From: Jeotgalibacillus aurantiacus
Lineage (GTDB): Bacteria; Bacillota; Bacilli; Bacillales; Jeotgalibacillaceae
Assembly: GCF_020595125.1 (NCBI RefSeq)
Contig: NZ_JACNMS010000003.1
Span: 1 to 64,000, forward strand
DNA: 64,000 nucleotides
Direction: 5' to 3'
Positions 12,270-62,674 of this stretch are shown here, one piece after another (positions within the stretch are counted from its first letter, which is position 1; every line of letters starts with the position of its first letter). The notes beneath the pieces were generated by a model, which worked only from the letters and a program-made list of their open reading frames with translations, ran no database searches and was not told where the DNA came from. A program made the translations under genes and the position numbers.

Positions 12270-12435
12270 GAGCAACACAAAGCGCCAGGACTGCCCGGTG
12301 GAGCGGCAGTTGACGAGGAGAAGGAGCATCGACGATTCGGCGGATGCCTTCCGGCTGATGACTGCACAGCCGACAACCTGTGATCTGAAATCATAAAGGC
12401 GACTTTATGGACAAAGACGCAGGGCTGCAGCACCA
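12270..12435 (+). ncRNA. glmS ribozyme: glmS ribozyme-riboswitch
   Basis: Self-cleaving RNA activated by glucosamine-6-phosphate that lowers glmS expression when the product is abundant. The conserved core is visible: AGCGCCAGGACTGCCC, GGTGGAGCGGCAGTTGACGAGG, TCGGCGGATGCCTTCCGGCTGA and the 3' domain around GGCGACTTTATGGACAAAGACG. Cleavage is expected between A12281 and G12282. The 3' boundary is approximate. Confidence 0.95.
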
Positions 12436-31958: not shown

Positions 31959-32055
31959 ACACAAAGATGATCTGCAGGGCGGCAATCCTGATCTCTGGTA
32001 ACTATCTGAAAGATAGCGCGTGGGGAACCATTCCCACCTCAGATTATCTTTGTGT
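31959..32055 (+). ncRNA. Candidate structured RNA (multi-branched)
   Basis: ACACAAAGAT (31959-31968) closes with ATCTTTGTGT (32046-32055). Inside lie three short hairpins: CAGGG/CCTG near 31975-31990, CTATCT/AGATAG near 32002-32017 and GTGGG/CCCAC near 32020-32038. It is not followed by a T-tract. I could not match it to a riboswitch class I know. Orientation is uncertain. Confidence 0.4.
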
Positions 32056-46066: not shown

Positions 46067-46936
46067 TTAATCTATCTCTAAAACATTTTCTAAATAACTT
46101 CTTTCTTGCTCTAATTGTACTTTAAGGTTTTCATCTTCCATTACTTCAGCGATATCAAAAGCTTTATTAATAGCTTTATCACCATTACTCTTGTTCAATA
46201 AGTTTTCCAGTAGCCCTTTTCTTATATAGCACAAAGCTATTTGGGGATAAGCCTTTTGTTCTTTTAGGTCTGTTAATACATCTTCATTTAAAGAGTTAGC
46301 TTGGATCAATAATTTTTTTCTAATGAGGAGTTGAACTAAATTGTATTTAAAAGGAATAAAAATTTTTTTATAATCTATATAGTTTTCATACTTTTCACTT
46401 TGCTTTAGAGCATAGTTTGTAATGGAAACGGCTGTTTCAATGGGGAACAAAAATAAAATAACACCAATTAATTTGAAGTCTGATAAATACCATGTATCGA
46501 GTTTCTCAAGTCTCTTCCAAACTTTTTCTGCATAGGATCGAGCCGACTCAAAATTACCGCTTTCCTCAATATTGATTAAACCTCTGGAAATACTCAAAAT
46601 ATCTTCTATGTAACGATCATCATTTTCCATCAAATACACTTTAGAGGCCGAAATAATTTCGTTCAGCGATCTTATATCTATAAACTTTATTTGAAAAAAA
46701 TTTCTAATTATCTTATCCCGGGGTGAGTAATCATAACCATAATGGACAAACTTAAATTCCTCTAAATCCATCTCTAAATTATCAAGTATTTTATGAAATT
46801 TCTGATAACTTATTTCGATATTTTCCAGCTCAAACTTGGAATAACTTGTTTGATGCATAATATTTTTACTTACTTCGCTCTGTTTGTAATTTTTAGATAA
46901 TCTGATCTGTTTTACTGTTTCTCCTACCATGTTCAT
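46067..46936 (-). CDS. Rgg/GadR/MutR family peptide-responsive regulator
   Basis: 289 residues. N-terminal XRE-type helix-turn-helix (VGETVKQIRLSKNYKQSEVS, IMHQTSYSKFELENIEISY) followed by Rgg-type EEFKFVHYGY and a helical TPR-like C-terminal domain. Rgg proteins in streptococci bind short hydrophobic peptides and activate adjacent genes. AGGTG lies 7 nt before ATG 46936. It is divergent from a 15-codon hydrophobic peptide gene at 47038. Confidence 0.85.
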   Translation of the reverse strand: MNMVGETVKQIRLSKNYKQSEVSKNIMHQTSYSKFELENIEISYQKFHKILDNLEMDLEEFKFVHYGYDYSPRDKIIRNFFQIKFIDIRSLNEIISASKVYLMENDDRYIEDILSISRGLINIEESGNFESARSYAEKVWKRLEKLDTWYLSDFKLIGVILFLFPIETAVSITNYALKQSEKYENYIDYKKIFIPFKYNLVQLLIRKKLLIQANSLNEDVLTDLKEQKAYPQIALCYIRKGLLENLLNKSNGDKAINKAFDIAEVMEDENLKVQLEQERSYLENVLEID

Positions 46937-47010
46937 AGATAATCACCTAATTTCAATATAAGGTTATATGCTTATTTTATCTTCTTTGTAGTTAAAAGTA
47001 TACATAATAG
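46937..47010. promoter_or_regulatory. Divergent promoter region rgg / peptide
   Basis: The 101-nt gap contains CATAAT at 47003-47008 without a good -35, as expected for an activator-dependent promoter, and an imperfect dyad ATCACCT...AGGTTAT around 46945-46970 that could bind the regulator. Inferred only. Confidence 0.35.
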
Positions 47011-47037
47011 AGGCAGTTAATAGAAAGGAGGATGGAA

Positions 47038-47085
47038 ATGGATATCATAATAATGACGATCGGTTGGATGGTTGGGTGCTGCTAA
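47038..47085 (+). CDS. Candidate short hydrophobic signalling peptide
   Basis: 15 codons: MDIIIMTIGWMVGCC. AAAGGAGG sits 6 nt before ATG 47038, a much better site than chance would give. It is hydrophobic with one Asp near the start and one Trp; streptococcal SHP peptides carry a similar core (MDIIIIVGG as I recall), and RopB's SIP is a leaderless octapeptide. Divergent from an Rgg-type regulator and upstream of a secreted-protein gene. Whether it is exported and sensed is inference. Confidence 0.6.
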   Translation: MDIIIMTIGWMVGCC

Positions 47086-47225
47086 AGGTTTATAACATAT
47101 AACAATTATGAAAATTCAAGTATAACTTGTTTTTTAGTTTGTTATGACATTCTTTTAGATTTAGGCTGAACGAGATAAGCATGACACTTTTAAAAATGAA
47201 ATTATAAAAAAGGGGGATGCAATAA

Positions 47226-47927
47226 ATGAAGAAAATTGGTAAACTTTTCTTAGCAAGTAGTTTAGCTTTAGGTGGATTATTTTCATTAGGGGAAACAGTA
47301 TCGGTGGCAAGTAGTAATCCTATCGATAGTTTAGAGAATATGAATGTAATTGAAGCTAGTGAGTTAGTGAAGGATAAAAAAATTAAAAACAATAACAAAA
47401 ATCTCGAAGAGTTAAATGTCGAATATAATTTAAAAGATGTAGATTTAGATAATCTTGAGGAAGGAACGAATGTGTATAATTTTGAAACTGAAGAGGATTT
47501 ACAAAAGTTCTTAGAAGAAATTGAAAGCACACCAAAAAAAGTCCATAAAGAAATAAAGCTAAATGATTCTAACAATGATCATAAAGTCTCTGATGATGGA
47601 GAATTTTCTACTATGGCAACATCTTCAGTTAGGCCTTCTACAAGCGAAAACACTGGCTTCTCAGATGTATATTTATATGCTGACATAAGCGTGTACTCAA
47701 CTGGTTCATTCAGACAAATTACTGGTATAAATAAAGTTTGGACAGAACACAACGGTGTTACGTTCTCGCAAGATTGGAAAGAGACGTATGCTTACGGAAC
47801 CGTCAATAGTACAAAGCAGTTAGCAAACATTTATGGTGGCGGTGAATTTAGTTACGTGCTCTTCATTGAGGGAATTGGTAAATTGTACACAAGAAAAATT
47901 GACTTAAGTTTTACTTACTATTTATAA
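47226..47927 (+). CDS. Secreted protein of unknown function
   Basis: 233 residues: Sec signal peptide (MKKIGKLFLASSLALGGLFS, cleavage near VSVASS), an acidic Asn/Lys/Glu-rich middle (30-135) that may be a propeptide, and a C-terminal ~100-residue beta-rich domain (SSVRPSTSENTGFSDVYLYA, GVTFSQDWKETYAYG). The two-part layout recalls secreted peptides or toxins processed on export, but I do not recognise the family. GGGGG precedes ATG 47226. Likely target of the upstream Rgg-peptide pair. Confidence 0.65.
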   Translation: MKKIGKLFLASSLALGGLFSLGETVSVASSNPIDSLENMNVIEASELVKDKKIKNNNKNLEELNVEYNLKDVDLDNLEEGTNVYNFETEEDLQKFLEEIESTPKKVHKEIKLNDSNNDHKVSDDGEFSTMATSSVRPSTSENTGFSDVYLYADISVYSTGSFRQITGINKVWTEHNGVTFSQDWKETYAYGTVNSTKQLANIYGGGEFSYVLFIEGIGKLYTRKIDLSFTYYL

Positions 47928-47958
47928 GTTCAATTAAAACTTAAGAGGAGGTCACCAA

Positions 47959-48060
47959 ATGTTTGATTATGTGTGGCAAATCACAAATGGTATTGTTTTC
48001 ATCTCACTGTTTGTTTTTATATTGAGGTGGTTGTTAAAAAAGAATATTAAAACCTCGTGA
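47959..48060 (+). CDS. 33-residue membrane peptide
   Basis: MFDYVWQITNGIVFISLFVF then ILRWLLKKNIKTS: one membrane helix with a basic tail. AGGAGGTC precedes ATG 47959 by 6 nt. 31 nt after the secreted protein gene, so it could be an immunity or export helper of it. Toxic type I-like peptide is an alternative. Confidence 0.6.
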   Translation: MFDYVWQITNGIVFISLFVFILRWLLKKNIKTS

Positions 48061-48067
48061 TTAAAAA

Positions 48068-48117
48068 GGACGTATAGCCTGAATCTCAGATCTCGGTGAT
48101 TCTGTTATACGTCTTTT
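48068..48117. repeat. R1 variant palindrome
   Basis: GGACGTATAGCCTGAATC with GATTCTGTTATACGTC followed by TTTTTTA. Lies between convergent genes and may terminate both. Confidence 0.7.
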
Positions 48118-48522
48118 TTAATTTTTATTCCTCCTATTATCCTCCTGCTTCAACCAATACCTGATCCCCTTTCCAGCCAAAGGTTCATCGTTATATCTCG
48201 GTATCACGTGGAGATGACTGTGGGGGATTTCCTGGTTCGACACTTTGCCAACATTCCATCCCATTGTATAGCCATCCGGAGAGTATCTTTCATCTAGGAT
48301 TCGTTTCGCCTCATGCAAAATTTCATAGGTATCCTTCCACTCTTCAGGTGTTAGCTCAAACGGATCCTGGCGGTGATTCTTAGGAACAATCAAGCCGCTG
48401 CCTTCTAAAATTCCCTGATGCTTATTGTGCTGCAGAAAATAGCACGTTGCATTCTCTAGTATAATAGTTTGTTCAATGTCCTGATCCGGGTTGCACAAAG
48501 GACAATGTTGATCGTAAGCCAT
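48118..48522 (-). CDS. HIT family hydrolase
   Basis: 134 residues with the histidine triad HSHLHVIPR and an N-terminal CPLC zinc-like pair. HIT proteins hydrolyse nucleotide conjugates such as AMP-lysine or dinucleoside polyphosphates. Starts at ATG 48522 behind AGGTGGGAG. Confidence 0.85.
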   Translation of the reverse strand: MAYDQHCPLCNPDQDIEQTIILENATCYFLQHNKHQGILEGSGLIVPKNHRQDPFELTPEEWKDTYEILHEAKRILDERYSPDGYTMGWNVGKVSNQEIPHSHLHVIPRYNDEPLAGKGIRYWLKQEDNRRNKN

Positions 48523-62477: not shown

Positions 62478-62510
62478 CAAAAAAATCCTCCCGCGCGAAA
62501 GCGGAAGGAT
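62478..62510 (-). terminator. Attenuator terminator in the ABC-F leader
   Basis: On the minus strand ATCCTTCCGC pairs with GCGGGAGGAT across a short loop and is followed by TTTTTTG, ~45 nt before the ABC-F start. A terminator here would stop transcription before the gene unless an alternative fold forms. Confidence 0.7.
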
Positions 62511-62570
62511 AAGTGTATACATAAATAAGCCTTTATCGTTCGTAAAGGAATACATATGGACAGACTGATC

Positions 62571-62600
62571 CTATTTTTTCTCGTAAAAATGCGTATACAT
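62571..62600 (-). CDS. Leader peptide candidate of the ABC-F gene
   Basis: Nine-codon ORF MYTHFYEKK upstream of the attenuator. No strong SD is seen. Another very short ORF (MMDGR, near 62630-62650) sits behind AAGAAGGG. Antibiotic-stalled ribosomes on such uORFs could switch the terminator off. Confidence 0.35.
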   Translation of the reverse strand: MYTHFYEKK

Positions 62601-62674
62601 TTTGACGTTTAAAATAGAATTAGTTGCTCATCTGCCATCCATCATCCCTTCTTGTGAGTTAGGTTTAGTATAAG

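Follow-up and report, generated by a model that had tools for sequence, protein, structure and literature searches.

Two kinds of peptide signaling through Rgg-family regulators are already established, the Rgg/SHP and the RopB/LCP systems, and Rgg itself is assigned to the Lactobacillales in the passages cited here (PMC9765709, PMC12700828). The published cores of the streptococcal short hydrophobic peptides (SHPs) are DIIIIVGG, which is the active form of SHP3, and DILIIVGG, as given in the relevant sections of two reports (PMC3150281, PMC3679016); the four precursors tabled in the second of these are 22-26 amino acids (aa) long, the N-terminus being basic and the core opening with an acidic residue (PMC3679016). 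Leaderless communication peptides (LCPs), mostly of 8-10 aa, are predicted in the main text of a third report to occur in six families, including the Bacillaceae and Staphylococcaceae, with some longer examples such as that of Lysinibacillus sphaericus (PMC10518010). The subject of the present analysis is a locus of this general kind at 46067..48060 of a 64,000-nucleotide (nt) stretch of Jeotgalibacillus aurantiacus DNA (contig NZ_JACNMS010000003.1, positions 1 to 64,000; hereafter the window), where a 15-codon open reading frame (ORF) stands divergent from an rgg gene.

With a probability of about 0.83, judged from its sequence, the locus is read as an Rgg/peptide autoinduction circuit that drives a bacteriocin-like protein and a membrane immunity peptide. 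Within the 3.5-Mb genome, rgg, the 15-codon ORF, a gene for a 233-aa protein, and a gene for a 33-aa peptide lie between a PadR/DUF2812 pair and a HIT-like gene (HIT-like by eye). The rgg gene (46067..46936, minus strand) encodes a 289-aa regulator of the RRNPP group with a helix-turn-helix (HTH) and a tetratricopeptide repeat (TPR)-like peptide-binding domain, and its start codon is 101 nt from that of the ORF, MDIIIMTIGWMVGCC (47038..47085, plus strand, ATG to TAA). Six nt 5' of this ATG stands an 8-nt Shine-Dalgarno (SD) sequence, AAAGGAGG (47024..47031, plus strand), one of the five 8-nt SD words sought across the window, and the ORF is the only SD-led one of its size there (9-25 codons, with the start 3-10 nt after the SD word). 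The 233-aa protein (47226..47927, plus strand) has a signal-like N-terminus and the 33-aa peptide (47959..48060, plus strand) a single hydrophobic segment, both recognized by eye. An earlier note on this DNA had claimed the minus-strand Rgg, the SD-led ORF 101 nt away, the secreted protein, and the 33-residue membrane peptide; all of these were borne out, the Rgg by scores above the cut-offs of two protein families. Its broader suggestion, of a quorum-sensing circuit with the geometry of Rgg-SHP or RopB-SIP loci, is supported in part, the peptide, its place, and a near-palindrome upstream of it being conserved and a family-wide test agreeing with it.

In the circuit proposed, the 15-codon ORF would encode a very short hydrophobic pheromone precursor. 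Either the whole peptide or a C-terminal portion around IGWMVGCC would leave the cell, return through an oligopeptide permease, and become the ligand of the divergent Rgg at its TPR-like domain. Five genes for oligopeptide-binding proteins are present in the genome. Peptide-bound Rgg would then act at the near-palindrome at 46958-46975, directly upstream of the peptide promoter, and raise transcription of the peptide, the 233-aa protein, and the 33-aa peptide. We infer that the 15-codon peptide is a secreted signal, and likewise its export, import, and active part, activation over repression, the extent of the operon, and an antibacterial role for its products.

Likeness to described Rgg/peptide systems

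The SHP systems of Rgg2, Rgg3, and Rgg1358 are resembled in the divergent pairing of regulator and peptide, as in groups I and II, and in the C-terminal hydrophobic core, relatives of the window peptide carrying DIWFIGGG and DIWLIKGG where SHP3 has DIIIIVGG. It was because of the two published SHP cores that the IGWMVGCC of the window peptide was aligned to DIWFIGGG. Unlike the SHP precursors, the window peptide is only 15 aa long, is devoid of a basic residue or leader, and has IGW where SHPs have D/E-I-I. The earlier note had remarked on a shared MDIII; the letters do agree with those of an SHP, but they fall at the wrong end, since the relatives place the SHP-like core at IGWMVGCC.

With RopB and its LCP (SIP), the locus shares a very small, hydrophobic divergent ORF with a strong SD and without a recognizable leader, together with species-specific peptide codes, as described in the main text of the LCP report (PMC10518010). 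It differs in length, with 15 aa here and 10-24 in relatives against mostly 8-10, and in its Trp-centered core, which is SHP-like in several relatives. Neither Jeotgalibacillus, Sporolactobacillus, nor Listeria is named in that main text (figures and supplements aside), and its list of 975 RopB homologs may include some of the receptors considered here (PMC10518010). The ComR/ComS system offers a further likeness, having an Rgg-like receptor by fold and a Trp-containing peptide, and seven peptides encoded on Listeria plasmids carry two adjacent Trp residues (WW) near their ends. XIP likewise carries a double Trp, whereas the window peptide has a single one. As the leader and acidic opening of SHPs and the usual length of LCPs are not matched, the locus is filed only as an Rgg/peptide system that would work like both.

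The regulator scores 40.3 bits against Pfam Rgg_C (cut-off 27) and 39.1 bits against TIGR01716 (cut-off 36.9), and its HTH_3 score of 22.5 bits is slightly below the cut-off of 23. The AlphaFold2 model (mean predicted local distance difference test score [pLDDT] 91) retrieved, in Foldseek order, Lmo0325, Rgg2, PlcR, Rgg3, and NrpR, with Rgg144 at rank 12, and predicts a TPR-like fold as in Rgg2, Rgg3, and PlcR. A profile built from 20 relatives matched, among solved structures, Lmo0325, Rgg3, Rgg2, Rgg144, PrgX, PlcR, and RopB. When the profile was confined to the peptide-binding part, the expectation (E) values were 2.9e-6 for Lmo0325, 1.1e-4 for RopB, 6.8e-4 for the TPR of Hop, 3.1e-3 for PlcR, 0.76 for Rgg3, and 0.87 for Rgg144, so that RopB is a better match than Rgg3 or Rgg144 (about 0.8), with generic TPR proteins (6.8e-4) close behind. 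By both sequence profile and fold, the closest solved relative is Lmo0325 (PDB 4ryk), which is named in the section cited as a regulator without evidence for peptide activation (PMC12445099).

Conservation of the peptide and its promoter

The distribution of this Rgg is patchy: it was matched in 4 of 61 near relatives (E 0.001), 14 of 397 genomes of the order (1e-20), and 23 of 398 of the class (1e-10), its own genome being included in each count. With a Sporolactobacillus receptor as query, all 15 genomes of that genus matched (1e-20), G158 by a fragment only. When 70 receptors were placed in a quick maximum-likelihood tree, the window Rgg fell within a seven-row clade (Shimodaira-Hasegawa-like approximate likelihood ratio test [SH-aLRT] 100) with those of J. 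sp. R-1-5s-1, J. alimentarius, Planococcus CAU13, Viridibacillus, Metasolibacillus, and the genome G459. The last has three Rgg-family genes in a row (C1:978632-981403) and two more at 377015 and 2802617; the first of the tandem genes stands opposite an SHP-like ORF ending DVWIIVGGG, and the gene at 377015 opposite MLDVVIETLHIWFSGVGK. Viral spread of the receptor was considered and rejected, as one distant relative was found among 70 candidate stretches in viral_contigs and 7 of 50,697 phage records matched, all of Listeria; the peptide ORF of one such record that was examined is that of the Listeria plasmid locus L065.

An intact homolog of the peptide, MDLILTAIGWMIGCC, is encoded in J. sp. 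R-1-5s-1, approximately 1.3 kb beyond a second copy proximal to rgg. The window ORF and this copy differ at 15 nt, distributed 4/1/10 over codon positions 1/2/3, and meaning is kept in 11 of the 16 codons (p 0.0002 by Monte Carlo random substitution); only 11 of the 48 nt immediately 3' of the ORF are identical in an ungapped comparison. At the corresponding place, Viridibacillus soli encodes MNLIKSLIDWMIGC, and Metasolibacillus meyeri possibly MIYEIVIFVNWYFS. A search of DNA for the pattern WM[VI]GCC-stop returned 2 of 299 genomes of the order, both with this Rgg, and a reversed control returned none. From sequence, we judge with high confidence that the 15 codons constitute a translated peptide under selection and linked to the Rgg.

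Upstream of the peptide site, an 18-nt element with the consensus ATAAGC-N6-GCTTAT was found in all eight regions aligned, i.e., the seven rgg upstream regions of the clade and that of the distal J. sp. copy. Its arms are exact in Planococcus, Metasolibacillus, and G459 and depart at 1-3 positions in the other five; the window version, ATAAGG-TTATAT-GCTTAT (46958..46975), is a near-palindrome with one arm mismatch and is a putative Rgg box. Given the position of this box, and with the -10 of the peptide promoter placed by eye at about 46999-47008, an activator bound beside the -35 region would be expected. The pattern TAARSTTWTAYGCTT has three matches in the genome, of which the sole intergenic one is at this locus; a wider Rgg regulon was considered and rejected, the other two matches being internal to long open frames (359 and 417 aa).

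In J. sp. (L033 2295-3600, 4350-4900), the promoter-plus-peptide unit is doubled before two unrelated secreted-protein cassettes. A segment of 125 nt, running from 77 nt upstream through the peptide stop codon, is repeated with two differences before the second cassette, and the likeness of the two copies ends at that codon, with 15 identities in the 60 nt that follow. The rgg-proximal cassette is decayed, its peptide and secreted protein both being interrupted.

Peptide ORFs beside related receptors and rival explanations

Places encoding related Rgg proteins were located by tblastn in the loci collected (104) and reduced by upstream or protein identity to 71 non-redundant ones, of which 70 entered the tree, one being too short. 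A uniform rule was applied to their upstream regions, requiring a divergent ORF of 9-25 codons with an SD-like word, at a distance of 70-165 nt, with a Trp after residue 5 and at least half of its residues hydrophobic. This was satisfied in 33 of the 71 regions, as opposed to 1 of 71 on the opposite strand and a mean of 2.14 (sd 1.46, maximum 6) in 100 rounds of dinucleotide shuffling. When a stricter SD was demanded and the distance set at 55-185 nt, 24 of 71 passed without the Trp term (shuffle mean 2.63, maximum 7 in 60) and 21 of 71 with it (0.57, maximum 2; opposite strand 0). On the receptor tree, the Trp-peptide label changes 12 times compared to 23.6 when shuffled (0 of 500 shuffles as low), near-copies contributing to this clustering. 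Receptor and peptide distances are correlated (r 0.75, n=33, 0 of 5000), also after thinning (n=16, r 0.32, 8 of 5000).

In Sporolactobacillus, such an ORF was found at 15 of 16 receptor places and in 14 of 15 genomes, the exception being the G158 fragment; 5 of these 15 peptides start MFSPDI[IV]W, the rest are variants such as MFSANDIW and MFSPEDIW, and one SD is weak. Nine of 25 matched records of Listeria plasmids were examined. Seven of these encode a WW peptide, L065 encodes a peptide with a single Trp, and L113 encodes none. Three tandem SD-led mini-ORFs, MTGLIQVLIQWWM, MNKYLGFILYLNWWIG, and MKARFQKWGHWWM, each with WW near its end, stand opposite the Rgg gene of the L. ivanovii plasmid pLIS46 (L066). 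Two receptors of genome G718 face MDLIITIMDIWLIKGG (this receptor match having an in-frame TAG) and MDLIITIMDIWFIGGG, respectively, and one receptor of G459 faces MVVVQVIGVVQLFQDVWIIVGGG. In Jeotgalibaca caeni (L040), a leadered 47-residue ORF ending GGGDIWLIGGW is divergent from an Rgg gene of the same family and could form a bridge between leadered and leaderless peptides. It fails the uniform test, as do three other ORFs picked by eye, namely MIYEIVIFVNWYFS of Metasolibacillus, MFSPADIWIVGGGIVLCSISSFAR at the second receptor of G399, and MEITTSTLWLIGTGRGS at L078.

Immediately 3' of the Sporolactobacillus peptide ORFs, within approximately 80 nt of the stop codon, a conserved hairpin with an invariant C-rich loop, CTCCCC, in 12 of 12 loci (L019, L038, L039, L041-L045, L047-L049, and L051) is accompanied by a second, GACTGC/GCAGTC; two-sided changes occur in 2 of the 12 predicted pairs, and Rfam gave no match at the hairpins in the seven loci searched. 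One possibility is a small RNA, transcribed together with the peptide, that would pair with SDs.

Several observations weigh against an autoinduction circuit at the window locus. J. alimentarius and Planococcus CAU13 keep the Rgg and the box, with no such ORF at that place; a stop at codon 10 truncates the rgg-proximal J. sp. copy; and no clear ORF was seen opposite the nearest G459 receptor. With the ORF thus absent, broken, or unclear beside other receptors, the rgg-proximal place satisfies the uniform rule in just two of the seven members of the clade, namely the window and V. soli. The earlier note had held that the ORF should be conserved in relatives carrying the same rgg, which is true of J. 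sp. and V. soli and untrue of J. alimentarius, Planococcus, and the proximal J. sp. copy. No acidic residue stands in the window peptide where SHP cores open, its sole one, D2, being at the other end, and no promoter ahead of its ORF was listed by the scan. Moreover, the Trp, hydrophobicity, and distance terms of the uniform rule were chosen after peptides had already been seen, and both the clustering of the label and the distance correlation owe part of their strength to shared descent.

Were the ORF spurious, its absence in J. alimentarius and Planococcus CAU13 would be readily explained, and the Rgg would control the secreted protein through some other ligand. This is very unlikely given the third-position pattern (p 0.0002), the standing of the ORF as the only SD-led one of its size in the window, the restriction of its end pattern to 2 of 299 genomes, each of which has this Rgg, and the family test; a chance ORF as such was rejected on its codon pattern, its SD, and its recurrence beside related receptors. 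An ORF that heads a putative transcript and ends Trp, Met, Val, Gly, Cys, Cys could also act in cis, its translation regulating the transcript behind it by attenuation or by stalling at the Trp or Cys codons, with no exported signal, and the doubling of the ORF along with its promoter in J. sp. would suit such a leader. We regard this as improbable: 33 of 71 regions beside an Rgg contain such ORFs, whose sequences differ greatly and track receptor phylogeny, the J. sp. copies share no attenuator, since their likeness stops at the stop codon, and a scan of 46800-48200 found no terminator-like site.

Rggs elsewhere control antimicrobial peptides, and the 15-codon product, being hydrophobic with Trp and Cys, might itself be an effector, i.e., a small antimicrobial or membrane peptide under an Rgg that answers to another ligand. 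This, too, seems quite unlikely, as peptide sequences change with receptor clades, three tandem WW ORFs face one Listeria plasmid receptor, and the SHP-like cores DIWFIGGG and DIWLIKGG suggest ligands. The autoinduction circuit is the preferred reading. Its generalization is favored only slightly: a Bacillales-wide class of Rgg pheromones of 10-24 codons with a Trp-centered core, standing between SHPs and LCPs. This class would occur in spore formers, near genus-wide in Sporolactobacillus, as well as on Listeria plasmids, and its promoter-plus-pheromone cassette would receive unrelated bacteriocin-like effectors.

Predicted output genes, novelty, and neighboring elements

Matches to the 233-aa protein were found in 7 of 348 genomes of the order, its own included, and six members were aligned, the partial seventh (L064) being left out. 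A membrane peptide of 32-43 aa adjoins four of the six, i.e., behind the gene in the window (33 aa), L061, and L063 and in front of it in L062; none was seen in L060, and the L059 record stops shortly after the gene. L062 and L063 lie near plasmid-mobilization-like genes (by eye). The model of the 233-aa protein, of moderate confidence (mean pLDDT 72), has a pro-domain-like N-terminal alpha/beta part and a C-terminal all-beta domain, consistent with a secreted pro-protein. No Pfam or NCBIfam family scored above cut-off, and Foldseek returned nothing at E 0.001 (best 3kny, 1.6e-3, and Lmo2686, 2.5e-3), so the role assigned to this predicted target is based on its architecture. In J. sp., what follows the intact peptide copy is a different secreted protein (231 aa), whose hydrophobic end is rich in Gly and Cys, and a membrane protein of 75 aa; neither matched a family above cut-off. 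Bacteriocin cassettes show this pattern, a secreted and a small membrane protein swapped behind one promoter, and 47226-48060, with its secreted protein and conserved small membrane partner, is taken to encode a putative bacteriocin-like protein and its immunity partner.

The earlier note had thought such a circuit new or little described in the Bacillales. It is not wholly new, since LCPs are already predicted in the Bacillaceae and Staphylococcaceae in the main text of the LCP report (PMC10518010). No paper uniting Sporolactobacillus, Rgg, and quorum was found, nor did literature searches by listing return a title on these peptides, and outside streptococci and related bacteria the circuit family appears to have drawn little attention. 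Gene callers probably skip ORFs this short, which may be why they have been missed. Sporolactobacillus and Viridibacillus are spore formers. The Rgg genes and matching peptide ORFs of these two genera, Jeotgalibacillus, and Listeria plasmids offer dozens of natural receptor/peptide pairs through which the evolution of specificity, a common ancestry of SHPs and LCPs, and the acquisition of toxins by signaling circuits could be approached.

Elsewhere in the window, Rfam matches were obtained for ncr1575 (62479-62663, minus strand), a skipping-rope RNA (31967-32047, minus strand), and a glmS ribozyme (12270-12433, plus strand).

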